Shown here: piece by piece, positions 2,449 through 60,858 of the stretch | Layout: each line of letters starts with the position of its first letter | Position numbering within the stretch: the stretch's first letter is position 1 | Source: an uncultured bacterium | GTDB lineage: Bacteria > Krumholzibacteriota > Krumholzibacteriia > LZORAL124-64-63 | Length of the DNA: 64,000 nt | NCBI GenBank assembly: GCA_937910695.1 | Contig: CALEMW010000039.1 | Span: forward strand, 1-64,000 | Reading direction: 5' to 3' | Translations under genes and position numbers: made by a program | Notes under the pieces: model-generated | Database searches by the model: none | What the model was told of the DNA's origin: nothing | Seen by the model: the letters and a program-made list of their open reading frames with translations, nothing else

Positions 2449-3897
2449 TCAGGATCCAGGATCGACATCGATCAAGAGGTAGCTGCGCTGACCTCCCGAT
2501 TCGACCAGCAACATGATGTCGTCGGACGACAGGGACAGCTCGTCGCGCAGGCGACGGAAGGCCGTCTCGTCGTCGACGGGTCGGTCGTTCACCGCGAGGA
2601 TCAGATCCCCGGTTCTGAGACCGGCCCGCCCGGCGGGACTTTCCGTATCGACGGTCACCACCAGAACTCCCCGGTCGCCTTCGATGCCGAAGGCCTCCCG
2701 GAGACGGGCCGCACGGGGGTCGTCGCTGTCGGGCGAGACCGTGACCATACCAAGCCACGCCCCTCCCCTCGGTCGATCCACGGCGCCGGCTGGCACTTCC
2801 ACCAGCACGACCGCCAGGTCGACCCCCCGGCCCTCTCGAAGACAGCGAACGGTGATGTCCCGCCCGAGCTCCGACTCACTCACAAGAAACTGCAATTCCC
2901 GGTCATCGGCGACTTCGACGCCGCCGAAGCTCACAATGACGTCGCCAACGACGAACCCGGCCGCCATGGCAGGCGAAGCATCGATGATGGATTCCACAAC
3001 CACACCGACGATTCCCGAGTCTCCCCGGTAATCGGAGGTCACAGCGCCCAGCCAGCCGCGGATCACACGACCCTCGGCGGCGAGCTGCTCGAAGATCCGC
3101 ACGGCGAAGTTGCTCGGAATCGCGAATCCGATGCCCTGCCCCGCCTTGTTGACCGCGGTGTTCACACCGATCACCCGGCCGGCGATGTCCAGCAACGGAC
3201 CGCCGCTGTTGCCCGAATTGATGGCCGCATCAGTCTGTAGAAAATCCTGATAGCGCGGCGCCCCTCCGTGGATGGCCAGATCGTTGCGCCCTTTCGCGCT
3301 CACGACGCCGACGGTCACGCTGCCGGCGAGGTTGCCGAAGGGGTTGCCCACGGCGATGGCCCAGTCCCCGACGCGGACCGCCTCGGAATCGCCGAAGATC
3401 AGCGGTTCGATCTTGCGATCCACATCGATCTTGAGCAGCGCAAGGTCGCTTGCAGGATCGACTCCAACGATTTCGGCGGGAATATCGTGATCGTCTCCGC
3501 TGAAACGCACACTCACTGCATCGGCTCTGGTCACGACATGATTGTTGGTCAGAATATGCCCGAGGTCCGAAACCACGAACCCCGTGCCGCTACCGGATTG
3601 ACGGAACGGGCTGGCGCTCCCGTCCTGACCAGGAAAGAAGCGCCTGTAAAGATCGTCCATAGGATCGAGATTCACGCCCGGTCCACCCGAGTCGCGGATC
3701 ACGCGGATGCTCACGACCGCAGGGCCGGCGTCTCGCGCAACAGTCGCAAAAGGCGATTCCGGAGCCGCCGACCTATCGATCTTCGCAAGCCCGGCGGCGA
3801 TCGACAGCGAACTCATCCAGACCAGGACCGGCACGACCATCACGCCGCTACGGCGCAAGGTCGGTCTGATCATCCTGATGCTGGCACGAGAGTTCAC
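2449..3897 (-). CDS. HtrA/Deg-family serine protease with two PDZ domains
   Basis: 482 residues from a GTG at 3897 preceded by GGAGG at five bases; a further upstream ATG (4017) lacks this site. An N-terminal hydrophobic segment (about residues 17-37, VMVVPVLVWMSSLSIAAG) gives export. The trypsin-like domain carries the full triad: H120 (LTNNHVV), D151 (SDLALLKID) and S231 (NSGNSGGPLL). Two PDZ domains follow (about 275-365 and 385-475). This is the DegP/DegQ plan for periplasmic protein quality control. The second PDZ ends right at the stop codon. It stands 61 bp before the sigma-factor gene in the same direction, a plausible stress or envelope-linked transcription unit. Confidence 0.94.
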   Translation of the reverse strand: MNSRASIRMIRPTLRRSGVMVVPVLVWMSSLSIAAGLAKIDRSAAPESPFATVARDAGPAVVSIRVIRDSGGPGVNLDPMDDLYRRFFPGQDGSASPFRQSGSGTGFVVSDLGHILTNNHVVTRADAVSVRFSGDDHDIPAEIVGVDPASDLALLKIDVDRKIEPLIFGDSEAVRVGDWAIAVGNPFGNLAGSVTVGVVSAKGRNDLAIHGGAPRYQDFLQTDAAINSGNSGGPLLDIAGRVIGVNTAVNKAGQGIGFAIPSNFAVRIFEQLAAEGRVIRGWLGAVTSDYRGDSGIVGVVVESIIDASPAMAAGFVVGDVIVSFGGVEVADDRELQFLVSESELGRDITVRCLREGRGVDLAVVLVEVPAGAVDRPRGGAWLGMVTVSPDSDDPRAARLREAFGIEGDRGVLVVTVDTESPAGRAGLRTGDLILAVNDRPVDDETAFRRLRDELSLSSDDIMLLVESGGQRSYLLIDVDPGS

Positions 3898-4044
3898 GGG
3901 AGCCTCCGTTGATTGCCTTGCGACATCGCTGCACACAAGAACATTACGCTTTTCGAGGAAGCGTCGGAGGCGGTCGGGACGCCGGATGGGGAATCCGACG
4001 TGTTGCAGGGACATCAAGACCTTACCAGACCTGCAACGGGAAGA

Positions 4045-4482
4045 TCAACCATTATTCTCGGGTTCCTCGTCGCAGGCGTCATCGTCACCACCGCCGGTCT
4101 CATAGATCTCGACATCGATCTCATCGTCCAGATCCAGATCATCCGACCCGGCCGCGGTGCCCGCGGTTGTACCTGCCGACGCGGCCCGATCCTGACGTCG
4201 GATCTCTTCGATTTCGCTCTTCTTGTCTTTGAGCTCCTTTTCTAGGGCGCGTACCCGGTCGGCGAATCCCAACAGCAGGGAGTCGTCGGCGAAATCGGTC
4301 CTTCCGGCATTCAGTGCGGTGTAGACCAAGCTACCCATTTCGCTGAACTGACGTTCGATGTCCCGACTGATCCCGAAGATGTCGTAACGCCGCACACCTA
4401 CCTTGGCCAGCTCGTTGGTCTTGTCGGCGGCGACGCCGTACCAGTCCACCATGTTCTTCTTCACATCGTCCCATAGCGCCAT
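4045..4482 (-). CDS. Small conserved-looking cytoplasmic protein, helical with acidic tail
   Basis: 145 residues, not recognised. The first half (MALWDDVKKNMVDWYG onward) has no signal peptide and looks amphipathic and helical. Residues about 75-100 form a charged coiled coil (ADRVRALEKELKDKKSEIEE). The tail is rich in Ala/Gly/Thr and then Asp/Glu and is probably disordered. Two ATGs compete; the one at 4482 is chosen because GGAGG lies seven bases upstream, against one base for the ATG at 4488. It is divergent from lpxH. The function is unknown. Confidence 0.75.
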   Translation of the reverse strand: MALWDDVKKNMVDWYGVAADKTNELAKVGVRRYDIFGISRDIERQFSEMGSLVYTALNAGRTDFADDSLLLGFADRVRALEKELKDKKSEIEEIRRQDRAASAGTTAGTAAGSDDLDLDDEIDVEIYETGGGDDDACDEEPENNG

Positions 4483-4547
4483 GTCCATGCCTCCCGAGTC
4501 CGTTTTCCCTTGCCAACGATCCGGTATTCATATACCAAAGAACTCCC

Positions 4548-5297
4548 ATGGACAAGAACACGTCACACGTCGTCCTTTTCGTCGGCGACACCCACTTCCA
4601 TCTCGTCCCGCGATCCGGCGAGCTTGCCCGCCAGGAACGCTTCTTGTCGTTCCTGGAGATGGCCCGTCATGCGGACGAGCTGGTCCTGCTCGGCGACATC
4701 TTCGATTTCTGGTTCGACTACCCCCATTTCAGGCTTCGAGGATACGAAGAAATCCTCCACGGTCTCGATGCCGTCCATGAAGCCGGAACGCGCCTCCATT
4801 TCGTCGGCGGCAATCACGACATCTGGGGTGCAAAATATTTTCGCGATCGCTATGGCACCTCCGCCAACGGAGCGCCGGTGGACCTGGATCTCGACGGCAC
4901 CCGCCTGCGCGTGATCCACGGCGACGGTCTTTTGGCCCGCGATATGATCTACAACGGTTTCCGCTGGCTGGTGCGGCAGCGGGCCGGCGTCGCACTGGCG
5001 AAAGCCCTCCACCCCGAACTGCTCTACCACTTCTGCTGCTGGCTGAGCGGCACCAGCCGCAAAGCCTCCCGTGATGAATCCGCCATCATCGTCGAACGGG
5101 CCCAACGCCATCTGGCTGCCGCGAACGACGACTGGGACATGCTGCTGATCGGCCACGTCCACCACGCCTTCCACATTCAGAAGGACGGTCGGGCCATGGC
5201 TGCTCTCGGCAGCTGGTTCGGCGAGGAGAGCTACGGGATCTGGAGCGAGGGCCGGTTTGCGCTCAAGGACTTCGCAACCGACCCCCGTCCGTTCTGA
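4548..5297 (+). CDS. lpxH: UDP-2,3-diacylglucosamine diphosphatase (LpxH-like metallophosphatase)
   Basis: 249 residues with the complete calcineurin-like metallophosphoesterase signature in LpxH form: GDTHF (D14, H16), LLGDIFDFWF (D50), GGNHD (N89-D91), HGDG (H124) and GHVHHAF near residue 200. LpxH hydrolyses UDP-2,3-diacylglucosamine to lipid X and UMP at the inner membrane, the fourth step of lipid A synthesis, so this supports an outer membrane with lipopolysaccharide-type lipid. The length fits the family (about 240). No strong ribosome-binding site precedes the ATG. The related broader UDP-diacylglucosamine pyrophosphatase-like phosphoesterases are the alternative, but DIFDFWF favours LpxH. 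Confidence 0.85.
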   Translation: MDKNTSHVVLFVGDTHFHLVPRSGELARQERFLSFLEMARHADELVLLGDIFDFWFDYPHFRLRGYEEILHGLDAVHEAGTRLHFVGGNHDIWGAKYFRDRYGTSANGAPVDLDLDGTRLRVIHGDGLLARDMIYNGFRWLVRQRAGVALAKALHPELLYHFCCWLSGTSRKASRDESAIIVERAQRHLAAANDDWDMLLIGHVHHAFHIQKDGRAMAALGSWFGEESYGIWSEGRFALKDFATDPRPF

Positions 5298-5301
5298 AGA
5301 A

Positions 5302-6237
5302 TCAGGATTCGGGCCCAAAGGCGAATTCGACCGTGAACCTGTGCTGAGAATCGATCCCCTCCTGCACCATAGCCTCATAGGCGTAGCCGATCCCGATGGT
5401 CCCCTTGCTGAATCCGGCGCCGAAGGTCAATCCCTGAGACTCATAATTCACCTTGCTCCCGACTCGCAGGGACAACGCCGGCACGAGGCGGTATTCGGCC
5501 CCCACATGGGCTTTCTCGGTGCCGTCGTTGGGGAAAATGACATCGCCGGCGAGGGTCAGCTTGCCGTCCAGGACCTCCAGCTGGGGATCCAAGGCCATCC
5601 CGAGTCGCAGAACCGTGGGCAACGGATAGGGCTCGGCATCGACGGTGAAGTCCGAACCGACATTCGTGTACGAAGCCCCGAACCAAAGGCCTTCGATGAG
5701 GGCCTTGTGCGAGATGAAGAAATCAAAGGCGAATCCGGTGCCGGCATGAATATCGATCTCTTCGTGCAGGATTTTCACGCCAGCCCCCACGGCCAGACGC
5801 TCGTTGATCCGACGGCCGAACGTCACGCCTAGCGATATCTGCTGGGGCGCAAAGGTGCCGACGGTCTCACCGATGCTCTCCTCGGTCGTGCGGTCGATGT
5901 CGTCGGCATAGAAGCCGGAAAAAATAACTCCCAACGCTCCTAGGGGGGTGCGGTGGGACAATACCGCCGTCTCCCTGTCGAACAGGCCGAAGCTCCTCTG
6001 GTGCTGGAGCAGCAGGTCGGTTCCATCGTCCTGGAACGCCAGCCGCGCTGGATTCCAATACACTGCAGCGGCATCGTTCGATGAAGCCACGCCGGCGCCG
6101 CCCATCCCTGTCTCTCTGGCTCCCACGGGAAAACGCAACGACAGAAAGCCCGACTCACCCGGCGTGCCCGCCAGAGCCATCCCCGCCAGCAACAGCAGGA
6201 CCATGCCCGCAACCATCAACCTGGGTCCGTTCTTCAT
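5302..6237 (-). CDS. PorV/PorQ-family outer-membrane beta-barrel protein
   Basis: 311 residues with a clear signal peptide (MKNGPRLMVAGMVLLLLAGM). The mature start has the family pattern G-x-x-FL-x-x-R-FPVGARETGMGGAGVA followed by SNDAAAVYWNPARLA, typical of the PorV/UPF0164 family. The rest alternates as beta strands to a barrel-like C-terminus ending in aromatic strands (HRFTVEFAFG). In Bacteroidota PorV is the outer-membrane shuttle of the type IX secretion system, but distant relatives have other or unknown roles. It lies directly downstream of a large secreted protein with a type-IX-like C-terminal domain, which fits a secretion link. The start is chosen at 6237, with AAGGA seven bases upstream, over an upstream ATG that would put charged residues before the signal. 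Confidence 0.8.
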   Translation of the reverse strand: MKNGPRLMVAGMVLLLLAGMALAGTPGESGFLSLRFPVGARETGMGGAGVASSNDAAAVYWNPARLAFQDDGTDLLLQHQRSFGLFDRETAVLSHRTPLGALGVIFSGFYADDIDRTTEESIGETVGTFAPQQISLGVTFGRRINERLAVGAGVKILHEEIDIHAGTGFAFDFFISHKALIEGLWFGASYTNVGSDFTVDAEPYPLPTVLRLGMALDPQLEVLDGKLTLAGDVIFPNDGTEKAHVGAEYRLVPALSLRVGSKVNYESQGLTFGAGFSKGTIGIGYAYEAMVQEGIDSQHRFTVEFAFGPES

Positions 6238-6317
6238 TCCTCGATCCTTTCTAGGCGCCGTCACGACGGCCATCTCTCTTCAACACCGTCACAGTATCGC
6301 TGTGGTGGCCTTGGACA

Positions 6318-9300
6318 TCAACGCTCGATCGCCGCGGGTTTCACGATCACACTGCGCTCCCCGCCCCCTTGGACGATCATTTTACAGAAGTAGGTTCCGC
6401 TGACAGCACCGCCGACGTCGAGGACCGCCTCTGCGGGCTCTCCGGCCACGGCCGTGACGATCTCACTGCGTGCGACCTCTTCACCCTCGAGATTATACAA
6501 GATCGCCGAAAGAGTGCCCCCGTGGTTCAGGCGAACCCTGGCATACAGACGATCACCGCTAGCAGGTGTCGGGTAGAGCGAAACACTGCCCTCTTCGACC
6601 AGGGCTTGGCCACCGGGAATGGGCGACTGCTCAGGCGCCTGGTTGGTTCGTTCGGGGGTTCCACCCCACATCGGCCAGATGACGTCAGCTTGATCAGTAC
6701 CGGGCAGTTCCCACACGACAAGACGAGAAACGAGTTCAGTGACGGCATTCTCTCCGGGATCGTGTTCGAGGAGACGAGGCATCGTCCCGACTGCAACGAG
6801 CTCGAGCCCCGGCGATCCGTCCAGATCCATGACCAGCGGCGTCGCCGCCGTTTCACCAGGCCCTGCCAGAGGCCAGCCGGGAACCACATCGCCACGCTCA
6901 TCCACGAGGTAGAGACGTCCGTCTGGAGCTGCAAAAACCGTCATCTCCTTATCGGCCACTCTCCAGGCCAGAGGGCTGACAGCCGCTCGGGCGGCAGCGG
7001 TCCGCACATCGTTGACCGGTATGGCGGGCCATGAGGTTTCCGGTGCGCCGAAACGCCCCGACTTGACGAAGGCGTCGTCGCTCGCGTAGACGACGCCAGG
7101 TGCCATGGGTGACCGCACGGGGAAACCGTTGTCCCAAACACGCGCTCCGTCACGTCCCACATGAAGACACCCACCGTCGCTCATGGGGACCAGCAACCCG
7201 TCGTCTAGAGCCAAAGGAGGCCACGGAGAGGGGCGCCCTGAAAACTCGGTCAGCAACCCCTCGCCGGTGAGCGCGCCCGGCGAGCTGACATAACCGCCTT
7301 GACCATCGTAACCGATGGAAATGAGATGGCCATCCCACGTCACCGGACCGGGCAGGTCCCCCATGCCTGGAAAAGCCCTGTTCATGCCGGGCACAGAGAC
7401 AACCCTGTCGCCGGCAGCATCATAGAGCTCGTAAAAGAAACTCGAGATCGTATCGGTGTCTTGGTGGTCCTCGTTGAGGGTCGCCACGAGCCTTGGCCCG
7501 GCGACGGGCTCATCCGCGAAGGATGCCGCCAAGATCGCCGGAGTGCCCACCCTGCGAGTGATCGTGCCCGACACGGGTGCCGCCAACCCGTGACTGTCCG
7601 GGTCGAAGTCGCCGTCTCGGACTTCCGAACCATCAGCATGGAACATGTAGGTCCCGCCGGGACCGTTGACGATGATCTCGACGGATCCATCGTCATCCAC
7701 GTCCGCTGCAGCCGGCGCTCCCGTCCAGGTGACCGCATCACCGAGTGCGTCGGTTCCGGTCGTCAAATGGCCAAGAGCCTCTCCCCCTTCCAGCATGGGC
7801 GAGAGGTCGTGATGCCAGGCGAACACCCTGCCGTCCACATCCACCGCCACGATTTCCAGAGTACCGTCCGGCGGCGAATCCAAGTCGACGGCCAGGAGAT
7901 GGCTTCCTCGCAGGTCGATCCCCGGCAGATCCAAGGAAGCCGATTCGAGCGGCCGTCCGGTCTCCGGAGCCTCCTTGCGGCAACGGAACGTCATGCTGTC
8001 GGCGTAGATCAGCACCGGCCAAGGAACTTCGGGCACGACGACAGCGGAATCCACAACGACCTCGGATACCGCGTCGATCACGATCCCGGTCCACGCCCCG
8101 CCCGCCGTCGCTGTGCTCGGAAGCGTCTCCGGGCCGAATAAATCGTGATCCTCACCACGGAAACTGTCGTCGTCCCCACCAAGCATCCAAGGCGAGGGTC
8201 GCCGGGAGTCGAGGTCCTGGAGGCCGTCGGCTTCTTCGAGATCGATGGATTTCCGTTGAGGATCCGCGTTGAAGACATTGCTCTCTGCATCCAGAGCCCG
8301 GGAGATCACACCCTCGTCCACATGCCAGATATAGAGACCACTGCCGGCCCCCTTCACGCCCGGTGCCCGCGCTAAATTGTCGCTCATGAAGAAGTCCCAC
8401 TCGCCTGCGGAGAGAACCTCCTTGATGTGCAACTCAGGATCGAAAGTCGCCAGTACGACTCCTTCGTCAGACCACGGGGAAAACGTCTCGTCGTCGATAC
8501 GGGTGAAATCGGGGACGCCATTGCCGTTTCGGTCGTCCCCGAAGGAGAAGATCCTGTTCCCATCGGGATCCTGGAGACGGTACTCGACCAGCCAATATTC
8601 GCTCGGACCGATAGCGATGCGTGCAAGGGTCGAATCGGCTCCGGCGTGCTCGGCGGGAAAGAGCGAAAAAGTGCCACCAACGTCGGGATCAATGTCGTAA
8701 GGCTCGAGCCAGCCCATCAGCATCTTGTTGAAAGCGCAAGGTTCCGTCGGAATCAGGCCGCCGGCCGCGAAAAGGCCGTAACCCATCAGACCGAACTGGC
8801 CGATTCCCTGGCTGTCGGGATTACCCGAAGGCGTGAAGTCGCTCAGAGAGAGCATACCGAGCCGCAGGCCGACTTCGAAGCAATACACACCCATCGAGCC
8901 GAAATAACCGCCCAAGCCACCGGCCGAGTCCTGATATTCCGTTTCGGGAAGCACCAGAACGTGTTGGATTCGGCCCGCGACCCCTTCGTCGGTTTCAAGC
9001 CAGGGGTCGACCAGGATCTCATCTTCGACTGCAGCGAGGAAATCCTCGGGGCTCAGGTAACTGCTGTAGATCTGTTCGGGCGAGTTGCCGAGTACATCGG
9101 TTTCCTCTCCCGCCCCCGCATGGATTACCATCACGGTATCGTAGAGGCCGAAGTCCACCAGATGATCCGTGGCGGCGACCACGTCTGCGACAAGCTGGAT
9201 CTTCTGCTCACCCTCGTCGGGATGGTTGCCGTACCAAGCCATCGGATGGGGCAGGTTGGCCACTTCTCCCACCACAGTGACGTTCAAATCGAAACGTCCG

Positions 9301-9710
9301 CCGCTGGCGGCTTCGAAATAGCGTGAGATATCATCGAGAAGATGAACGAAGTAGATCGAATCATGAGCCGAATAGAGAAACTCTGTCTGAGCTGGCGCAG
9401 GGAATTCTCCCGGCAATTCTCCATGACGACCGAACATCAGGCTGTCGGAAAAATCACACATCAGAAGCACTGCTTCCAGCCTGTCGGGGGCCTTCTGTCC
9501 GAATAGTCTCTGCTTCTGAAGCATGGTCGAGCCGTCGCTGTGCAATTGATTCACGACATGCTCAGGATGGGGATACACAGCCGCCCGAGTCAGGACATCG
9601 CCCGCCGATACACTCGTGACGAGTCCGCACAGGAACATGGTCATCAGCATCATCGGCACCCGACACGGCTGAATTCCGCTCGAAGAACATCGAAATGCGG
9701 ATCGGGGCAT
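6318..9710 (-). CDS. Large secreted M6-peptidase-like protein with destroyed active site, propeller region and C-terminal sorting domain
   Basis: 1,130 residues. A signal peptide (MMLMTMFLCGLVTSVSAG) is followed by an M6/immune-inhibitor-A-like region (about 60-480). The landmark after the zinc helix is kept (GQFGLMGYGLFAAGG, then PCAFNKMLMGWLEP), but where M6 enzymes have HExxH this protein reads F-E-V-G-L (about residues 278-282). Both zinc histidines are lost, so it should not be catalytic. Residues about 530-1020 contain FG-GAP/propeller-like repeats (AAADVDDDGSVEIIVNGPGG; MDLDGSPGLELVAVG). The last 90 residues resemble a type-IX-like sorting domain (SLYPTPASG ... LYNLEGEEVARSE ... SGTYFCKM). 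The ATG at 9710 is chosen since the upstream part overlaps a promoter. The gene sits next to the PorV-type barrel. Confidence 0.82.
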   Translation of the reverse strand: MPRSAFRCSSSGIQPCRVPMMLMTMFLCGLVTSVSAGDVLTRAAVYPHPEHVVNQLHSDGSTMLQKQRLFGQKAPDRLEAVLLMCDFSDSLMFGRHGELPGEFPAPAQTEFLYSAHDSIYFVHLLDDISRYFEAASGGRFDLNVTVVGEVANLPHPMAWYGNHPDEGEQKIQLVADVVAATDHLVDFGLYDTVMVIHAGAGEETDVLGNSPEQIYSSYLSPEDFLAAVEDEILVDPWLETDEGVAGRIQHVLVLPETEYQDSAGGLGGYFGSMGVYCFEVGLRLGMLSLSDFTPSGNPDSQGIGQFGLMGYGLFAAGGLIPTEPCAFNKMLMGWLEPYDIDPDVGGTFSLFPAEHAGADSTLARIAIGPSEYWLVEYRLQDPDGNRIFSFGDDRNGNGVPDFTRIDDETFSPWSDEGVVLATFDPELHIKEVLSAGEWDFFMSDNLARAPGVKGAGSGLYIWHVDEGVISRALDAESNVFNADPQRKSIDLEEADGLQDLDSRRPSPWMLGGDDDSFRGEDHDLFGPETLPSTATAGGAWTGIVIDAVSEVVVDSAVVVPEVPWPVLIYADSMTFRCRKEAPETGRPLESASLDLPGIDLRGSHLLAVDLDSPPDGTLEIVAVDVDGRVFAWHHDLSPMLEGGEALGHLTTGTDALGDAVTWTGAPAAADVDDDGSVEIIVNGPGGTYMFHADGSEVRDGDFDPDSHGLAAPVSGTITRRVGTPAILAASFADEPVAGPRLVATLNEDHQDTDTISSFFYELYDAAGDRVVSVPGMNRAFPGMGDLPGPVTWDGHLISIGYDGQGGYVSSPGALTGEGLLTEFSGRPSPWPPLALDDGLLVPMSDGGCLHVGRDGARVWDNGFPVRSPMAPGVVYASDDAFVKSGRFGAPETSWPAIPVNDVRTAAARAAVSPLAWRVADKEMTVFAAPDGRLYLVDERGDVVPGWPLAGPGETAATPLVMDLDGSPGLELVAVGTMPRLLEHDPGENAVTELVSRLVVWELPGTDQADVIWPMWGGTPERTNQAPEQSPIPGGQALVEEGSVSLYPTPASGDRLYARVRLNHGGTLSAILYNLEGEEVARSEIVTAVAGEPAEAVLDVGGAVSGTYFCKMIVQGGGERSVIVKPAAIER

Positions 9711-9764
9711 GCCGGGACCTTTCAGGCTCGATTCATAGACTTTTTGCAGATCACAGGAACTGGT

Positions 9765-9794
9765 ATGATAGGACCGAAGGTCGTTGACAGTCAA
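9765..9794 (-). promoter_or_regulatory. Sigma-70 promoter for the M6-like gene
   Basis: Read on the minus strand: TTGACT, an 18-base spacer, then TATCAT (5 of 6 matches in each box). It lies about 50 bp upstream of the ATG at 9710, which supports that start. The rest of 9795-9994 shows no gene. Confidence 0.6.
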
Positions 9795-51895: not shown

Positions 51896-52879
51896 TTAGC
51901 GAAAGCGCTGCTTGAACGCACCCCAGCTCAATGTTTCGTTGGAAATGCTCTCGTCGACGGATGCCGTGGTGAACGATCCACACTCCAGCAGACTGCTCTG
52001 GGTGACCTCGCTGCCATCCAGCCGTACGCTGAACGCTGTGTACCAGTATTCCGGAACCTCGGGATTCGTATGAACGATGCTCTGCCATTGACCCGCGACG
52101 GCCGGAAACGCCACCAGCAATTCGCCATCGTAGATGGATGTTGGATGTTCTCCATCGCTGCGATATCTGATCATGGTGGCATCCCCCTCACCGGCAGTCC
52201 ATCCCAGCTCTATGACGGTGCCCCCGCTCTGAACCGACGAGAGGTCCGTGATCGCCGCAAGAGGTTCGGCGCAGAGGGCCGGCTGACAATGGTAGAGATC
52301 CTGGTCGCCGGCATAGGCTCCGTGGAAAGGAGAAATCGCAGGAACGTCCGGTCCTGCGACAAGAAAGAGGGTCGCCGTACCTGTGCCGGCATAACCGTCA
52401 ATGTCCACATACACACCCGAGGACCCGGTGGTCGGCGACACCGCTATGGTGCCGAGTTCGACGGGACCACACTCGGCCAAGCCCGCAAGTTCCACATCAA
52501 TGACAGTCAGCGTTCCATCAGGCATCGCAACTGAGGATCCGACCAATCCGAACTCGGATCCCGGCGTGAAGCCCTCGATGTCGCCGTTACTCACCAGGCG
52601 AAACGAAGCTCCTGAAATCCCTAGCCCCAGGTTCCAGGCGTAGAGAGTCATTTCGGTGGCTGCTTCAACCGCGAGTGGGATCACACAGGAGACATCGGCA
52701 TCGGACACCTGGAAGCCGATCCTAGGTCGATGATCGAGCCCATAGTTCCCGACATTCTCGCTGGCGGGCGAAAGCTTTTCACAGACGCTTGCGACCGAAG
52801 CGGTCGCCGTCCCGATCACGGCCGCAAGGATCAACAAGGTCGCAACAGTTCGTCGGGCTTGATATGCCATCGATACCAT
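51896..52879 (-). CDS. Secreted protein with C-terminal WxxFKxxFR tag
   Basis: 327 residues: signal peptide (RTVATLLILAAVIGTATASVAS), then a beta-rich cohesin-like or adhesin-like body (PAVYV-type strands: EMTLYAWNLGLGISGASFRL, VIDVELAGLAECGPVELGTI) with about seven Cys, and FN3-like strands near 210-300. The extreme C-terminus SNETLSWGAFKQRFR has the same pattern as the protein at 54240. That tag is not the FlgD-like domain, LPXTG, PEP-CTERM or other tag I know. GGAGG lies 11 bases before the ATG. It has an AT-rich promoter region upstream. Confidence 0.72.
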   Translation of the reverse strand: MVSMAYQARRTVATLLILAAVIGTATASVASVCEKLSPASENVGNYGLDHRPRIGFQVSDADVSCVIPLAVEAATEMTLYAWNLGLGISGASFRLVSNGDIEGFTPGSEFGLVGSSVAMPDGTLTVIDVELAGLAECGPVELGTIAVSPTTGSSGVYVDIDGYAGTGTATLFLVAGPDVPAISPFHGAYAGDQDLYHCQPALCAEPLAAITDLSSVQSGGTVIELGWTAGEGDATMIRYRSDGEHPTSIYDGELLVAFPAVAGQWQSIVHTNPEVPEYWYTAFSVRLDGSEVTQSSLLECGSFTTASVDESISNETLSWGAFKQRFR

Positions 52880-52962
52880 GATTAAGGTTTCCTCCCTGTC
52901 ATCGATCTAGCACAGTGCAGCAGGGGCACTCCACAGGTTGCTCCATCACAATCATAGAAACA

Positions 52963-52971
52963 AGTATATCA
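52963..52971 (-). promoter_or_regulatory. Extended -10 promoter in an AT-rich block
   Basis: On the minus strand TGATATACT, an extended -10 box, lies in an AT-rich stretch (about 52950-53015) between the TPR gene and the C-terminal-tag gene. The block is bracketed by TCACAATC and GATTGTGA, an inverted repeat. Confidence 0.4.
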
Positions 52972-53020
52972 TATATTTTCTCAATATAAAACATTATTAA
53001 TCAAATATAATGGATTGTGA

Positions 53021-54052
53021 TCAGTCTCGACGGTTGTCGACAAGGGAGGGATCGAGTTGCAGGACGATGCCCCATTCGACATCGGCGTCTTCTCGGCGGC
53101 CTAATTTGAGCAACATCGCAACCCGATTGTTGCGCAAGGCAGCGCTCTGAGGAGCAAGGGCAATGGCGCGTTCTACAAGAAACAAGGCGGATTCATCCTC
53201 TCCTGCCTCGAAACAGATCAAGGACGCCAGCCCCCAGAAGTCCGCGCCGTCATCCTCGACACCCCCTGAAACCGCCAGGGCCAAGGCCCGTGAGTCATCT
53301 CCCAATTGTTGATCGGCTTCCAGGACGATTCGTCGCTCGTTGGCACTCAAAGCATCGGGCCAGAGATTCAGAAGCATGGCGCGGGCTGCTTCGGGTTGGC
53401 CCGTCTTGAGCAGGATCAAAGCCATCTGCTCCCGAGTCTCCGATGTTGGATTGCTACCATGAAGAATCGTGATGTAAGGAAGAGCGCGGTTGTAATCCCT
53501 ACGAACCAAGGAGAGGCGCACCAAGGCCCTAGCCACATCCGGGCAATCGGAGCAACGGGTTTCGGCTTCCTCGAGGATTGAGGCGGCACGGTCGATCTGC
53601 TCGTAATCCAACAGGACATGGCCGAACTCCACACGCACGGACCAATCGTCCAGCGCCAGGGAGCAGGCGTCCCGGTACTCGGAAAACGCACGGCCGCGTT
53701 TACCGAGTTGAAGCAGCAGATGAGCGAGATTGCGGTGGTTGACGGGATCTTGCTGAGCCCAGAGAACAGCTCGTTCCAGGTGAGGCAAAGCCTCTTCGAA
53801 ACGCCCTAAGGCCTGATAGGCCAGGCCCAGACGTTGTTCGAGGGGCCACAGGACCTCGGCTCCGAGACGGTCGTCGTTCAACAGCGGCGGCAAGAGTTCG
53901 ACGACCTCGTCCGCCCTTCCGCATGCAAGAAGAGAATCTGTTGTCGCCATGACCTCCTGCAAACGGTCCACACGCTGGCTCCAGTTCGGATTAGCGAACA
54001 CGAAACCGGCCGTCATGACCAAAACGAGAACACAGGCCTTGGCGTTCATCAT
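53021..54052 (-). CDS. Exported TPR protein
   Basis: 343 residues, signal peptide (ACVLVLVMTAGFVFA) and then about eight TPR-like repeats (LGLAYQALGRFEEALPHLER, RNLAHLLLQLGKRGRAFSEY, LICFEAGEDESALFLVERAI, RNNRVAMLLKLGRREDADVE). It lies among secreted-protein genes in the 50.8-58 kb patch. The role is unknown; TPRs are protein-binding. The start is divergent from the gene at 54240. Confidence 0.8.
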   Translation of the reverse strand: MMNAKACVLVLVMTAGFVFANPNWSQRVDRLQEVMATTDSLLACGRADEVVELLPPLLNDDRLGAEVLWPLEQRLGLAYQALGRFEEALPHLERAVLWAQQDPVNHRNLAHLLLQLGKRGRAFSEYRDACSLALDDWSVRVEFGHVLLDYEQIDRAASILEEAETRCSDCPDVARALVRLSLVRRDYNRALPYITILHGSNPTSETREQMALILLKTGQPEAARAMLLNLWPDALSANERRIVLEADQQLGDDSRALALAVSGGVEDDGADFWGLASLICFEAGEDESALFLVERAIALAPQSAALRNNRVAMLLKLGRREDADVEWGIVLQLDPSLVDNRRD

Positions 54053-54164
54053 CGTTCCTCCTCACCTACCTTCAAGCATACCCCCTTGGGAATTCGGATG
54101 CCAGAACAGCCAGATATCCGCCAAGCCTTAAAAATATTCCATCTCGTGATTGATGCAATCTTTA

Positions 54165-54194
54165 TTGATATTTTATATGTTTTCATGCTATAAT
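54165..54194 (+). promoter_or_regulatory. Strong sigma-70 promoter for the C-terminal-tag gene at 54240
   Basis: TTGATA, an 18-base spacer, and a perfect TATAAT, in an AT-rich stretch upstream of the 54240 ATG. The predicted start of transcription is near 54202. Confidence 0.7.
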
Positions 54195-54239
54195 ATCATT
54201 TCTTCGACGGATCGACCCCAGATGAAGGAATGGAACACC

Positions 54240-54953
54240 ATGGTGACCAGTCGACGCATGTCCTCACATACTGTCTTGATCGCTGTGATTGGATCGTTCG
54301 TGTTGATGCCGGGTATCGCTTCTGGCTTCCAAAGCAACCACAATGCCATGGACATGGTCTGGAACTCGAGTTCGTTCGATTGCGAGTCCGTAGCGATGAC
54401 CCTTGTGGATGATTTCGTTTGGGAATGTGTCGCCCCAGCTCCATCAGCCGAGACGTACTATCTTCAGTTTTGGCCCGGAAGCAGCATGGAGCCCAAATAC
54501 GGAGCCGATATCAACGATCCCCTGGGGCTCATTCTGGACGACGATCCCAGTCAGGTTCCCGTCTCCCTGGCTAACTCGGGGTACTACACGATCCGTCTCC
54601 TGGAAGCCGCGCCCTCCTTCGAACTTGTCGGTGCTCCCGGCTCCATCGTTGTGAGTCTGGTTTTCAGCGATGATCCCATCTCACCCCCCACAGATTCATC
54701 AGTCATGGTGCTGGACCTGGATTTCGACATTATGTTAGGATTCTTCACAGTCGGCGGGGGCACTGGAATCGACGTTGTGAATTTGATACCTGATCACACA
54801 TACCGCCTGAGTGTGACAGCGACCGGCTACCGTGACGAATCCTTGACGGTGAGCGTACCGGATGCCAGCCCGGTTCCGGTGACCGTGGCCCTCGACCGAC
54901 TTGTCGCCAATGAGAACACCACTTGGAGCGGGTTCAAGGCCTTATTCCGTTGA
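54240..54953 (+). CDS. Secreted protein with C-terminal WxxFKxxFR tag
   Basis: 237 residues: signal peptide (TVLIAVIGSFVLMPGIASG), a beta-rich acidic body with two Cys and a late carboxypeptidase-regulatory-like stretch (YRLSVTATGYRDESLTVSVP), ending ANENTTWSGFKALFR. The C-terminus matches that of the 51896-52879 protein; the rest does not. The ATG at 54240 is chosen because earlier ATGs fall inside or next to the promoter; GGA lies five bases upstream. The glycosidase-like gene follows at 38 bp on the same strand. Confidence 0.72.
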   Translation: MVTSRRMSSHTVLIAVIGSFVLMPGIASGFQSNHNAMDMVWNSSSFDCESVAMTLVDDFVWECVAPAPSAETYYLQFWPGSSMEPKYGADINDPLGLILDDDPSQVPVSLANSGYYTIRLLEAAPSFELVGAPGSIVVSLVFSDDPISPPTDSSVMVLDLDFDIMLGFFTVGGGTGIDVVNLIPDHTYRLSVTATGYRDESLTVSVPDASPVPVTVALDRLVANENTTWSGFKALFR

Positions 54954-54991
54954 GGCGATCGCCCGCCGGTAATAAAGAGGCCCTTTTGACC

Positions 54992-56794
54992 ATGACACCC
55001 ATTCGCCAAATTCCCGTTCGACGCCGAATATCCCGTTCGGCGCTCTTGATGTTGTTCGGAACATGCCTAATCGTTCAAGCCTTCACGCCCCAAACTGCTA
55101 CGGCACTTGTAAAACTGGATTTCGAACAGACTTTCTTCCGTATTCCTGGTCGAGAGATCTGGGATTTCTGCATCGTCCAGCAGGACGGCCTCTACCACAT
55201 CTTCTATATCGACGTCGATGAGAACGCCCCAGGCAACAAAACAGATTGGCTAGGACACGCCACGAGCCCGGACCTCACCCACTGGGACGTCCAGCCACCT
55301 GCACTGTATGCCGGACCCTCCTGGTGGGACGATTGGAGCGTCTGGGCACCTCACGTGGTCCGCGACGAGCCCAACTCACGCTGGGTCATGGCCTACACGG
55401 GTGTCGACTCCCTCCGCGTCCAGCGAGCATGCATGGCCTATTCCACAGACCTCGCGACCTGGACCAAGGAACCGGCGAATCCCGTGTTCGAGCCAGACTC
55501 TCTGAGCTACTTCTGGAGCCCGACGACCGCGTGGAGTTCGTTCCGGGATCCGTTCCTCTACTTCGAATCCGGCGAGTGGCATATGCTCAGCACCGCCGCC
55601 CTCCGCCTCGGCGGATTTCCCGGCTACCGAAAAGCCATCGTCCACCACGCGTCGAGCTCCGATTTCGTGACCTGGACAGACCAGGGAGCACTCTACGTTC
55701 ACGATGGTCCTGCACAAAACCGCGATCTCGAAAGCCCCTTCTACATCCACCGCAACGGACTCGACCACCTCTTCTTCACCGAGTACTACTCCGGGGGCGT
55801 GAGCCACATCGCCGCACCGACCCCCGCCGGCTGGACTTTTGCTGACCGTACGGTGTTGGACGATTCCGCAGCTCCCGAAATCCTGGACATCGGCGGCACC
55901 GACATCCTCGGGCGTTACGTCACCTATCAGCATCCCTCCACCGGCGAGTTTTCGTTCGTCGCCAGATTCGACACCCTGCATTGGCTCGCACCGGATTCCT
56001 GCATGATCTACAAACCGGATCCTCTGCTGCGGAACTGGCCCGACCACAGCGGCACCGCCTGCTTGGGCAACCCTGTCTTCGGAGACAACCCCGCCGAACG
56101 CGGAGCACAGACCGCAGGCCCGATAGGAACCTTCTCCTTCAGCAGCCAGGAATACTACCAAGGTCCCATGAGCGGCATCGGAGCACCGGGAGCCTACCTT
56201 GGAGATTTCGCCCAAGGCCATGCCCAGAGCCGGCCCTTCGTCGTCGCTGGCGACATCATGACCTTGATGGTCGGAGGCGGCGCCTACCCGACAACCTGTT
56301 ATGTAGCCTTGATGGACGCCGTCGCCGACACCATCCTGTTGCGCGAAACCGGAACCGGCGTGGAGTTGATGAGTCAGCGAATCTGGGATATCAGTCCCTA
56401 CCAGGGAATGACCGCAACGATCAAGATCGTGGATGCTGAAAACGGTGCGATGGGTCACATCTGCGTGGATGAAATCGTGGAGTCCATGGTCCCCTCTTCA
56501 GCGGCACCGACGCCCCGCAACGTCCGAGTCGCCACCGTCCCCAATCCATTCAATCCACGGACCGAGTTCCGATTCCAGCTCGCTGGCCAGGTGTCCGCCC
56601 AAGTGCAGATCCATGACCTGAGAGGACGGAGAGTCTGGTCGTCCCCGTCCCGGACCCTCGATGTCGGGACACAGGCGATCCCCTGGAACGGAATCCATGA
56701 CGACGGTCGGGCCATGCCCGGCGGAACCTACATATTCCGTCTGGTCCTCGACGGCCGTACCGCTTCGACGGGACGCCTCACCCTCATCCGATAA
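54992..56794 (+). CDS. Secreted GH32/GH43-like five-bladed propeller protein with FlgD-like sorting domain
   Basis: 600 residues. After a signal peptide, a propeller of the GH32/43/68 type carries three acidic marks: W57-D58 (EIWDFCIVQQDG), RDP at 185-187 (SSFRDPFLYF) and E247 (DLESPFYIHRNG), the positions of nucleophile, transition-state stabiliser and acid/base. The C-terminal 80 residues are a FlgD-like/type-IX-like domain (VPNPFNPRTEFRFQL, VQIHDLRGRRVW, DGRAMPGGTYIFRL). It likely cuts or binds a glycan at the cell surface. A TTG at 54986 with GAGG upstream is an alternative start. Confidence 0.8.
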   Translation: MTPIRQIPVRRRISRSALLMLFGTCLIVQAFTPQTATALVKLDFEQTFFRIPGREIWDFCIVQQDGLYHIFYIDVDENAPGNKTDWLGHATSPDLTHWDVQPPALYAGPSWWDDWSVWAPHVVRDEPNSRWVMAYTGVDSLRVQRACMAYSTDLATWTKEPANPVFEPDSLSYFWSPTTAWSSFRDPFLYFESGEWHMLSTAALRLGGFPGYRKAIVHHASSSDFVTWTDQGALYVHDGPAQNRDLESPFYIHRNGLDHLFFTEYYSGGVSHIAAPTPAGWTFADRTVLDDSAAPEILDIGGTDILGRYVTYQHPSTGEFSFVARFDTLHWLAPDSCMIYKPDPLLRNWPDHSGTACLGNPVFGDNPAERGAQTAGPIGTFSFSSQEYYQGPMSGIGAPGAYLGDFAQGHAQSRPFVVAGDIMTLMVGGGAYPTTCYVALMDAVADTILLRETGTGVELMSQRIWDISPYQGMTATIKIVDAENGAMGHICVDEIVESMVPSSAAPTPRNVRVATVPNPFNPRTEFRFQLAGQVSAQVQIHDLRGRRVWSSPSRTLDVGTQAIPWNGIHDDGRAMPGGTYIFRLVLDGRTASTGRLTLIR

Positions 56795-58191: not shown

Positions 58192-59580
58192 TCATTCACC
58201 CACAGAGGAACGAGCACCGAAGCGGCTGATGAACACGGCACCGGTACCGAGACAGTAGACCAGGGCGTGGACACATAGTCCCAGCAGCACGAGCAGGTTG
58301 CCAGGGATCGAACCATCGGGCATCCAGATTCGGATCGATGCACCCAGGAAACCGGGCACGGAGACGACGATCAGTCCGACCAGCACCGGAAGCATGGTGC
58401 CTTCTCGACAAAACGCCCCGCAGATTCTACGCCCGACACGTCTGAGCACCATACCGACGGACAGCAGCCCCAGCACGAGATACGCCAGGCCTACAAGCAA
58501 TGCGAGAGGAATGCCGATGACGGTGGCGACCAACACGACCATGACGATGAGCACCAGGAGATGTCCCAGCACAAACCACAGGGAACCGACCAAGAAGCTC
58601 CGCCCGGCCGATCCCGCGAGGGCCGCGTCGATGGCCACAAGCCTGCGGGCTGGAATGACGGCCAATGTGATCAACAACAGGACGGCCAGAACAGTCAGGC
58701 CCGTCGATTTGACGACCAGGCTGGTCGGTCCGCTGGACATCATGCCCCAGAACCCGTCGACGGCGCCGCTGCTGACTTCGTAGACGTCGCCGTCGATGAC
58801 CGCGGCTGCATCCCGCATAAGGTCACCGAGCACCACGTAGACTTCTCCGTGAACCGAGGAATCCTCACCGAGAATGAGATCGCCTCCGACAACAGTGATC
58901 GTGCCGTCCACCTCGCCGAGGATGGTGGCGTCGCCCAAAAGCACGATCACATCGCCGGTCACCCTCTCGTCGTCGCTTACGAGCAGACCCTTGCGCAAAG
59001 CGAACATATCGTCGCCGATGATCTTCTTGGGCTTCGGTCGATCGGGCTGGCCGAACAGGTTGAGGTTCCAGCCGCTGGCGGCTTCCTGAAAGCGTTCGAT
59101 CTCTCTCTGGATATCGAGGGAGTCCGGCATCTCACCAAGGATCGTGGCTGTCACGGCGCTGATGCCTTCGCTCACCCGCTGACCGATATCCTCGGGGAGC
59201 TCGATGCGGAAGTCGCCGGAAGTGTTGGAAAAGAGAATCGTATTCTCGTCGACCTTGACCTGGATGCCGGACAACTCTCCTTCGAGCTCCTTGATGATCG
59301 ACTGGAGGTCCTCGAGAGCCGCGTTGATTTCGTGATCATCGGAGTTGTGCACCCGATCGCGGAGCTGGGACAGTCGGTCCTGACGCAGGCGGATTTCATT
59401 GCGGATGGAGTCCTCGAAAGCCAGGTTCCGGGGCGGGGGCGGCGTAGGCTGCTGGGCATGGAGAGCAATGGGAACCGCCAGGCAGAACACCGCGACGACG
59501 ATGCTCAGGGACATCCTCGTCGCGGCCGTTCTCGACCCGAAGGTCTTAGGCGTGATCGTTCCTTTGAACCGCTCCAACAT
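58192..59580 (-). CDS. Bactofilin-like polymer-domain membrane protein
   Basis: 462 residues. A signal or membrane segment (MSLSIVVAVFCLAVPIALHA) is followed by a charged coiled coil (about 60-110), then a bactofilin-type right-handed beta-helix region (LLVSDDERVTGDVIVLLGDA, ILGEVDGTITVVGGDLILGE, SVHGEVYVVLGDL). About five membrane helices follow (VLAVLLLITLAVIPA and others). The gene overlaps the anti-sigma gene end by 35 bp, with GGAGG before its ATG, so it is translated with it. It probably is a membrane-linked structural protein controlled by the ECF sigma factor; that is inference. Confidence 0.78.
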   Translation of the reverse strand: MLERFKGTITPKTFGSRTAATRMSLSIVVAVFCLAVPIALHAQQPTPPPPRNLAFEDSIRNEIRLRQDRLSQLRDRVHNSDDHEINAALEDLQSIIKELEGELSGIQVKVDENTILFSNTSGDFRIELPEDIGQRVSEGISAVTATILGEMPDSLDIQREIERFQEAASGWNLNLFGQPDRPKPKKIIGDDMFALRKGLLVSDDERVTGDVIVLLGDATILGEVDGTITVVGGDLILGEDSSVHGEVYVVLGDLMRDAAAVIDGDVYEVSSGAVDGFWGMMSSGPTSLVVKSTGLTVLAVLLLITLAVIPARRLVAIDAALAGSAGRSFLVGSLWFVLGHLLVLIVMVVLVATVIGIPLALLVGLAYLVLGLLSVGMVLRRVGRRICGAFCREGTMLPVLVGLIVVSVPGFLGASIRIWMPDGSIPGNLLVLLGLCVHALVYCLGTGAVFISRFGARSSVGE

Positions 59581-60061
59581 AGATCCTCCGGCTCAGCTGC
59601 TGCACGCGCACGAGCGCTTCTGGCAACAGTCCCAGTCCCACCGCAGCGACGGCGATGTCGGGTACGCGGCTCATAGCCAGGGCCGCTGCAGTGGCGGCGG
59701 CCAGGACTAGGCCGGCGGCGCGGGTCGCGCCGGAGCGGACGAAGTCGGGGAGGCTCTCTTCCTCAAGAATCACAGGCATCCTTGGTGCACGCAGCTCGGC
59801 CATCTCTCGATAGGCCGCATACGGCACCGATGCCAGAATCTTCTCGTCGAAGTCGGCGGGTGGCTCAATCGCCGGCATGGCGTTGAGCATCCCGAACATG
59901 GCCTTCTGCTCGTCCAGCTCCTTGCAGCATGCGTCGCAGTCCCTGACATGCAGGAAGAGACGAGTGGCCACGGGCCCGAGCAACGTCTCGTCCAGGTAGT
60001 CCTGCATGTTTGCACGAGTCGTCTCGCACGTCCAAGGCTTTGCGTCATTCATCTTGTCCAT
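59546..60061 (-). CDS. Zinc-finger anti-sigma factor
   Basis: 171 residues. The ZAS motif H38-x3-C42-x2-C45 with upstream C12 (TCETTRANMQDYLDE, LHVRDCDACCKEL) binds zinc and the sigma factor. A hydrophobic segment near 115-145 (AAGLVLAAATAAALAMS) should cross the membrane. A GGAGG site precedes the ATG. It lies 148 bp after the sigma gene. The gap has no gene but holds GC-rich inverted repeats. Confidence 0.9.
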   Translation of the reverse strand: MDKMNDAKPWTCETTRANMQDYLDETLLGPVATRLFLHVRDCDACCKELDEQKAMFGMLNAMPAIEPPADFDEKILASVPYAAYREMAELRAPRMPVILEEESLPDFVRSGATRAAGLVLAAATAAALAMSRVPDIAVAAVGLGLLPEALVRVQQLSRRIYVGAVQRNDHA

Positions 60062-60209
60062 CGTTTCCCTCCAGGGTCTCCATCCCCCATCGCGTCCGCA
60101 GGGCCCGGGCGGGGCCTTTGAATCTTGGCTGCGACCGGCTGAAACCGCGCCGCAGATGTCCCTACGCGATATGGAACTGGAGGTTTCACCCTGATTTTGT
60201 CTTTTTTCA

Positions 60210-60797
60210 TCAAATGTGGTACTCCCGCTCGGCCAGAATCTTCGTGATCATGTTCCTGGCCCGGTGGATCCTGGCCTTGACGGTGCCAAGGGGCAGATCC
60301 AGCACGGTCGCGATGTCCTCATAAGACAGATCCTGGTCGTGTCGCAGCAAGATGATCGATCTGTAGTGCGGCGGGAGATCAGCGACGACCTCCTCGAGCC
60401 TCATCATCGCTTCGCTGCGTTCGAGGATCGTATCGGGCTCCGGGCCCTTGTCCGGCAACTGGAACTCGATCTCATCGCCGTCCTTGTCGGTATGTCCGTC
60501 GAGGGACAGGAACCGCATGCGGTTGCGGCGCAGATGGTCAATGCAGTGATTCGTGGCGATCCTGAAGATCCAGCTCGAAAACGCGTAGGTCTCGTCGTAA
60601 CGGTCGAGAAGCGAAAAGACCTTGATGAAAACTTCCTGGGCCAAGTCCCTGGCGTCTTCGGATTTCCTGGTCATGCGGAAGCATAGGCCGTAGATGGCGC
60701 CACGATATCGCCCGAGGAGTTCGGCGAACGCCGCCTCTTCCCCGCGCTTACAGCGCTTGATGACCTTCAGATCCTCATGCTTGTCGAACATCGCCAT
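60210..60797 (-). CDS. ECF-type sigma-70 factor
   Basis: 195 residues. Region 2 is clear (FAELLGRYRGAIYGLCFRMT, SEDARDLAQEVFIKVFSLLD, SSWIFRIATNHCIDHLRRNR), then a short linker and region 4 (LPPHYRSIILLRHDQDLSYE, LDLPLGTVKARIHRARNMI). Regions 1 and 3 are absent. It is paired with the downstream anti-sigma gene. The ATG at 60797 is chosen over one 14 codons earlier because of the promoter position. Confidence 0.93.
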   Translation of the reverse strand: MAMFDKHEDLKVIKRCKRGEEAAFAELLGRYRGAIYGLCFRMTRKSEDARDLAQEVFIKVFSLLDRYDETYAFSSWIFRIATNHCIDHLRRNRMRFLSLDGHTDKDGDEIEFQLPDKGPEPDTILERSEAMMRLEEVVADLPPHYRSIILLRHDQDLSYEDIATVLDLPLGTVKARIHRARNMITKILAEREYHI

Positions 60798-60828
60798 GGT
60801 CACGTCCCGGGGGTTGAACAACCCGGCG

Positions 60829-60858
60829 AAGATACGCACGCACCTACGGAGTGGTCAA
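60829..60858 (-). promoter_or_regulatory. Sigma-70-like promoter of the ECF sigma gene
   Basis: On the minus strand TTGACC, 18 bases, TATCTT. The leader between it and the ATG contains the hairpin GGGTT-GAAC-AACCC (about 60810-60825), which could affect translation. Confidence 0.45.

Follow-up and report, generated by a model that had tools for sequence, protein, structure and literature searches.

Why should two secreted proteins that otherwise have nothing in common end in nearly the same 14 residues? This question is raised by a 64,000-nucleotide stretch of DNA from an uncultured member of the Krumholzibacteriota (contig CALEMW010000039.1, positions 1 to 64,000; hereafter, the window). We consider it probable, at roughly 60%, that this shared ending (the tag) is a C-terminal sorting signal of a new, non-tripartite kind, with a PorU-like peptidase of family C25 as its reader or processor, and that it serves to display proteins on the cell surface, cohesin docking sites among them. 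The two genes and their tags, located in the open reading frames (ORFs), are as follows.

51896..52879, (-), protein 1, 327 residues, signal peptide, tagged (ORF, translation)
51899..51940, (-), C-terminal tag NETLSWGAFKQRFR of protein 1, stop codon 51896-51898 (translation and pattern match G000:C39:51896-51925)
54222..54953, (+), protein 2, signal peptide, tagged, likely start ATG 54222 or 54240
54909..54950, (+), C-terminal tag NENTTWSGFKALFR of protein 2, stop codon 54951-54953 (translation and pattern match G000:C39:54924-54953)

Translation bears out what an earlier note on this DNA had reported: both endings are present, each right before a stop codon, on proteins that are unrelated outside the tag and have signal-peptide-like N-termini. 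Pfam and NCBIfam scans assigned no family to protein 1, and no relatives at E ≤ 1e-5 were found in the 37 other genomes of its family, so that the tag is the sole part linking this protein to anything. In protein 2, the tag is preceded by a weak CarboxypepD_reg-like domain.

Abundance and Spread of the Tag

Tags were searched for with the DNA pattern TGG-NNN-NNN-NTN-AAR-NNN-NNN-TWY-MGN-stop, which corresponds to W-x-x-h-K-x-x-[FY]-R-stop with h = [IVLMF], and the reversed pattern served as control. The genomes were draft or metagenome assemblies, simple ORFs were used as gene calls, and loci were sampled rather than collected exhaustively. The 4.14-Mb window genome (G000) contained 44 matches, and the control gave 0. 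A signal peptide was recognizable by a simple rule in 40 of these 44 tagged proteins, compared with 10 when the proteins were reversed; of the remaining four, two are truncated at contig ends. Matches were present in all 80 genomes of the phylum that were searched (6–54 per genome in family f1); the controls were mostly 0 and never exceeded 3 per genome. When 85,000 species genomes were scanned with a stricter pattern, for which we estimate about 7 chance matches, at least 119 stretches were returned, from records bearing the names Krumholzibacteriota and Candidatus Eisenbacteria, among others. Tag matches were present in each of the 33 genomes from which the scan loci came, those named Eisenbacteria carrying 18–82 each. 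Rarity of the motif, one way in which the earlier note could have been wrong, is ruled out by the 44 tags of the window genome and the matches in 80 of 80 phylum genomes; the count per genome that the note had proposed reaches 82 across the phylum and the 33 further genomes. The tag thus stands on dozens of unrelated signal-peptide proteins per genome, as is expected of a dedicated sorting system.

Five records (L099, L100, L116, L125, and L129) are labelled Latescibacterota, Fibrobacter, or Gemmatimonadales, and these labels look wrong or outdated. In several such records, SprA lies at coordinates identical to those in genomes of the window phylum, indicating that they are the same genomes. 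Three matches fell on viral contigs. On an IMG/VR contig (L094) that is probably host DNA, a short signal-peptide protein ends in EEKTWSEIKAMYR.

Shape and Position of the Tag

The consensus of 315 tagged ORFs was V-[PA]-[VT]-E-E-S-[ST]-W-[GS]-A-[IV]-K-[SA]-L-[YF]-R-stop, in which W and K are set by the search pattern. Ser or Thr preceded W in 88%, Gly or Ser followed it in 93%, and Tyr or Phe stood at +7 in 91%, with the stop right after +8 in 258 of the 315. The core of the consensus given in the earlier note therefore stands, but neither its leading N-E nor the F that follows W-x-x is general, and the final R is not strict. Variant endings include K, Q, E, D, QP, AR, or one to four extra residues, and some lineages stop one residue earlier. 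In family f3 the tag mostly lacks the final R, and in some f1 genomes F replaces W. An array of proteins ending in SFGAVKGRF, a shortened F variant, adjoins a C25 gene at L228 (G007 contig C17).

The C-terminal placement, a further point on which the earlier note could have been refuted, was upheld. In approximately 247,000 ORF residues from sampled loci, the core occurred 131 times, in 129 cases no more than 5 residues from the stop; many of the loci had been picked for stop-ending tags, and about 20 unselected endings were terminal too. No transmembrane-like window was found in the last 50 residues of 90 of 95 tagged proteins, and in the other five it precedes the tag. A structure model (predicted local distance difference test, pLDDT, 85) shows a low-confidence linker, lowest at residues 166–171, followed by an isolated helix at 173–179 that starts at Trp.

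Tagged Proteins and Other Sorting Signals

The breadth of the cargo was assessed by clustering after removal of the signal peptide and tail, which left 32 clusters for 44 tagged proteins and 64 clusters for 95. Common descent of the full-length proteins, the third way in which the earlier note could have failed, is thereby ruled out. Domains found among the 95 tagged proteins include beta-helix, PMP repeats, CBM20, X25, and one Pfam cohesin. Relatives of the M36 peptidases that depend on rhombosortase and myxosortase are also tagged, as are proteins with the NCBI choice-of-anchor E (3e-43), F, and X domains. Choice-of-anchor is the NCBI name for domains that occur with alternative sorting signals.

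Tagged beta-helix proteins align along their main domain with relatives that end in FlgD-like tails of the type IX secretion system (T9SS). Similarly, L136, which carries a FlgD-like T9SS tail, has as its N-terminal domain the one that is tagged in L097/L103. None of the 95 tagged proteins matched a T9SS tail model (FlgD_ig, Por_Secre_tail, or CHU_C at Pfam E ≤ 1e-3; TIGR04183 at NCBIfam 0.01). Judged by the T9SS-tailed relatives, the choice-of-anchor domains, the relatives of M36 peptidases, and the lack of double tails, the tag takes the position of other sorting signals.

No CTERM model matched among the 95 proteins, no known model in the Pfam or NCBIfam scans of tagged proteins covers the tag, and a description of it was not found in the open-licence literature. 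As the earlier note had supposed, then, the tag matches none of the known signals tested in these scans and in the transmembrane-window check. One locus of the window genome (L043, contig C233, at approximately 51.2 kb) holds a tagged lipoprotein (LIGCSDD) next to an untagged paralogue with 55% identity.

Linkage to a C25 Peptidase Locus

If the tag is a sorting signal, an enzyme that processes it may occur alongside it, and the earlier note had suggested looking for one. The candidate that emerged is a clade of PorU-like C25 peptidases in genetic linkage with the tag. Where f5 genomes had few strict tags, a C25 peptidase gene directly followed the tagged genes. Genomes with a single strict tag, tried as a shortcut to the machinery, proved to hold many variant tags, yet led to this locus. 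The C25 genes of the phylum were then collected irrespective of tags, so that most clade loci were found via C25 searches and two or three had first been found through tags. Clade loci share a conserved order: a dockerin-like gene comes first, then between one and five tagged genes, then the C25 peptidase gene, followed in several genomes by SpoIID, GH3 (NagZ-like), or AnmK genes. The window genome has this locus on contig C155 (L270).

about 0.3–10.6 kb, the whole locus
about 9.9–10.6 kb, dockerin-like gene
about 7.5–9.8 kb, three tagged genes
about 3.1–7.4 kb (about 3099–7403), C25 peptidase gene
thereafter, SpoIID and GH3 genes

Among loci with 2.5 kb or more of upstream sequence, 26 of 31 in the clade (both phyla) encoded a tagged signal-peptide protein within 4 kb upstream of C25, whereas 0 of 22 C25 loci outside the clade did (Fisher, 2e-10; related genomes are not independent). 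A profile built from 13 clade members found a clear C25 orthologue in 15 of 16 genomes, and in a second phylum (that of G088) 18 of 20 genomes have one in an identical layout. In the tree, the linked C25 genes form one clade (31 rows; Shimodaira–Hasegawa-like approximate likelihood ratio test, 97) apart from the PorU genes that adjoin PorV-like genes. The catalytic His and Cys are conserved in the clade, GH and GC being invariant in the alignment. The C155 protein matched Peptidase_C25 at 1.4e-52, and the best PDB match of the clade was PorU (6za2, 5e-32), although at L080 the cut-off of the NCBI PorU equivalog NF033707 was not reached (131 bits against 420). In most genomes the clade peptidase has a T9SS-type tail of its own. 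From this linkage, the C25 clade is probably the partner of the tag.

Canonical PorU loci were rejected as the partner because they have no tagged neighbours. A tag beside the C25 gene of L234 was spurious; it ends a 108-residue protein with no signal peptide, and the gene lies outside the clade. At the C155 locus, the cell wall turnover genes SpoIID and GH3 adjoin the proposed surface-display genes.

Cohesin-Like and Dockerin-Like Neighbours

The tagged neighbours of C25 share one fold, and 94 of 96 such proteins in the sampled loci are tagged. Sequence models fail to recognize them as cohesins. Two structure models from different phyla (pLDDT 65 and 85) both had cohesins as best PDB matches; with the model of pLDDT 85, the first 30 PDB matches were all cohesins, with template-modelling scores (target) of up to 0.68. 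The profile of the dockerin-like gene matched the X-dockerins 4wi0 (3e-9) and 2b59, which are among the partners of the type II cohesins retrieved by the cohesin-like model. Two calcium-loop repeats (D-x-N-x-D) are present at the C-terminus of the dockerin-like protein, and Pfam Dockerin_1 was found in 3 of 18. The cohesin-like and adjacent dockerin-like proteins may bind each other.

Other Genes in the Window

Proteins of ordinary T9SS type are encoded in the same window.

5302..6273, (-), PorV/PorQ-family protein (T9SS shuttle family), NF033709 at 148 bits, above the cut-off of 90
6318..9794, (-), T9SS-type M6-like protein adjoining the PorV-family gene, NF052323 at 3.8e-50, under its cut-off
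54923..56794, (+), GH32-like secreted protein with a FlgD-like/T9SS tail, adjoining the tagged gene, Glyco_hydro_32N 1e-17, FlgD_ig 7e-6, TIGR04183 22.0 bits
56895..57923, (-), secreted protein with a FlgD-like/T9SS tail, Pfam FlgD_ig 9.5e-10

The pair at 5302-9794 (-) is an ordinary T9SS shuttle and cargo pair, and the true start of the GH32-like protein probably lies inside its ORF. By eye, a zinc-finger anti-sigma-factor-like gene and an RNA polymerase sigma-factor-like gene were recognized at 59546-60839 (-); genes of similar appearance were noted close to tagged ones at several loci of Eisenbacteria (L098, L117, L166, and L175).

Proposed Mechanism and Alternatives

We infer a sorting or anchoring role for the tag, as the earlier note had done from its position. 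In the proposed mechanism, the signal peptide would take tagged proteins across the inner membrane, and the last ~14 residues would be recognized at the outer membrane or cell surface as a flexible linker and short helix with N-cap Ser/Thr, Trp, Ile/Val, Lys, and Tyr/Phe-Arg. The most likely reader would be the dedicated PorU-like C25 cysteine peptidase, in the window genome that of C155, which may cleave the tag, perhaps at the conserved Lys. The protein could then be released or joined to a surface glycan, as by PorU in Bacteroidota, which cleaves the C-terminal signal and can join cargo to lipopolysaccharide (PMC11285876, PMC11969387). With single-domain cohesin-like proteins and the dockerin protein as core cargo beside C25, one product would be docking sites on the cell surface. 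Export itself may be performed by the T9SS because SprA is nearly always present, being found in 78 of 78 phylum genomes and 27 of 28 other tag-bearing genomes. The same near-universality made SprA presence or absence uninformative as a guide to how the tag and the T9SS are related.

Several points weigh against this reading. Because tag endings vary, the reader does not recognize a fixed terminal carboxylate. Five of the 31 testable clade loci have no adjacent tag, and one tagged protein is a lipoprotein, which needs no second anchor. Cutting at Lys is a low-confidence guess from the specificity of gingipains and disagrees with the known preference of PorU in Bacteroidota for small residues at the cleavage site (PMC11969387). 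Moreover, the C25 linkage could be with the cohesin-like domain, whose fold almost every tagged neighbour has, and not with the tag; only matching tag variants speak for the tag itself.

The fold of the locus is shared by only 8 of 95 tagged proteins genome-wide, and the variants can be compared between the locus and the rest of each genome. Family f3 mostly lacks the final R both at the C25 locus and elsewhere. The locus tags of G039, G066, and G103 combine F with a final R, and these genomes have further F-for-W variants away from the locus; six genomes tested that lack this form at the locus had none of these variants. G000 has three F variants despite W at its C25 locus. The match between locus and genome-wide variants would be expected from one shared reader per genome, which is suggestive rather than proof.

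Among the alternatives, the one that survives best is that the linked C25 peptidase is mere additional cargo or a paralogue, which we consider unlikely. It draws on the near-universal SprA, on the PorV-family proteins and FlgD-like tails in the window, on the exchange of tag and T9SS tail between paralogues, and on the tendency of both tail types in the window genome toward a terminal Arg. Against it stand the predicted helix of ~14 residues, where known T9SS signals are beta domains of which the shortest have 43–55 residues (PMC11969387), and the canonical PorU loci without tagged neighbours. G103 (the record of L147) also counts against it, having 14 tags and a C25 orthologue with no SprA match, through T9SS loss or an incomplete assembly.

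Slightly less probable still is a non-covalent docking helix that is kept on the protein and binds the groove of a surface receptor or scaffold without cleavage, in the style of dockerin and cohesin. A short amphipathic C-terminal helix after a disordered linker, the tolerance of extensions of one to four residues, and neighbours that mark the locus as concerned with docking would all fit such a helix; yet the closest linked gene encodes not a binding protein but a peptidase with intact catalytic His and Cys, and a receptor candidate was not found. A quality-control or turnover signal for a periplasmic protease, unrelated to sorting, has in its favour that tail-specific protease substrates carry hydrophobic extreme C-termini and that the tag lies at the extreme C-terminus with a hydrophobic face, but it is very improbable for a tag that is restricted to a chosen set of proteins whose relatives bear anchoring signals, is lineage-tuned across the whole genome, and has as its linked protease a PorU-like peptidase, not one of the Prc/CtpA type.

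The sorting signal read by a PorU-like C25 peptidase is thus the reading that we prefer. Its fuller form would be a second sorting pathway beside the T9SS in Krumholzibacteriota and Eisenbacteria, in which a 14-residue helical tag has a dedicated reader, a PorU-like C25 transpeptidase, that would attach dozens of proteins covalently to the outer surface, single cohesin modules among them. We put this forward tentatively, at somewhat short of even odds; if true, proteins would be displayed on the surface by means of a signal that lacks any membrane-spanning part.

Comparison with Known Systems

Sorting tags show which proteins a cell exposes, and this one, found on proteins left unnamed by databases, would let the surface proteome of two phyla be read from sequence. 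We know of no cultured model for the Krumholzibacteriota or the Eisenbacteria. A PorU relative whose signal is short enough for peptide tests would also bear on how C25 sortases recognize cargo, and the cohesin–dockerin locus suggests a compact modular way of mounting proteins on diderm cells.

The closest parallel is the T9SS with PorU: both have a C-terminal signal on signal-peptide proteins, dozens of these per genome, diverse cargo, and a C25-family peptidase (here a candidate), and both occur in this genome. However, T9SS signals (type A/FlgD-like and type B) span 43 residues or more and are beta domains, either Ig-like or with three or more strands, whereas the present tag is helical, has about 14 residues, and contains no matching motif. 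Its linked C25 peptidase also belongs to a clade separate from canonical PorU.

LPXTG, PEP-CTERM, GlyGly-CTERM, and MYXO-CTERM resemble the tag in that one short motif occurs on dozens of unrelated exported proteins. As in the CTERM systems, tagged genes adjoin the gene of a sorting enzyme (here a candidate), in the manner reported for mrtX in tag-poor myxobacteria (PMC11980579). Unlike tripartite CTERM tags, the present one forms the very end of the protein, with no transmembrane helix or basic cluster after the motif, and its candidate enzyme is a secreted C25 peptidase, whereas CTERM systems use a membrane protease or sortase.

Cellulosomal cohesin–dockerin systems and the T9SS-anchored cohesin scaffoldin of Candidatus Stygibacter (PMC8542988) are similar in that cohesin-like domains and an X-dockerin-like protein are combined for surface placement in a diderm lineage. 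In contrast to these, single cohesin-like proteins are encoded here, each with its own tag, in one conserved locus together with a peptidase, and no tandem scaffoldin was seen at that locus.

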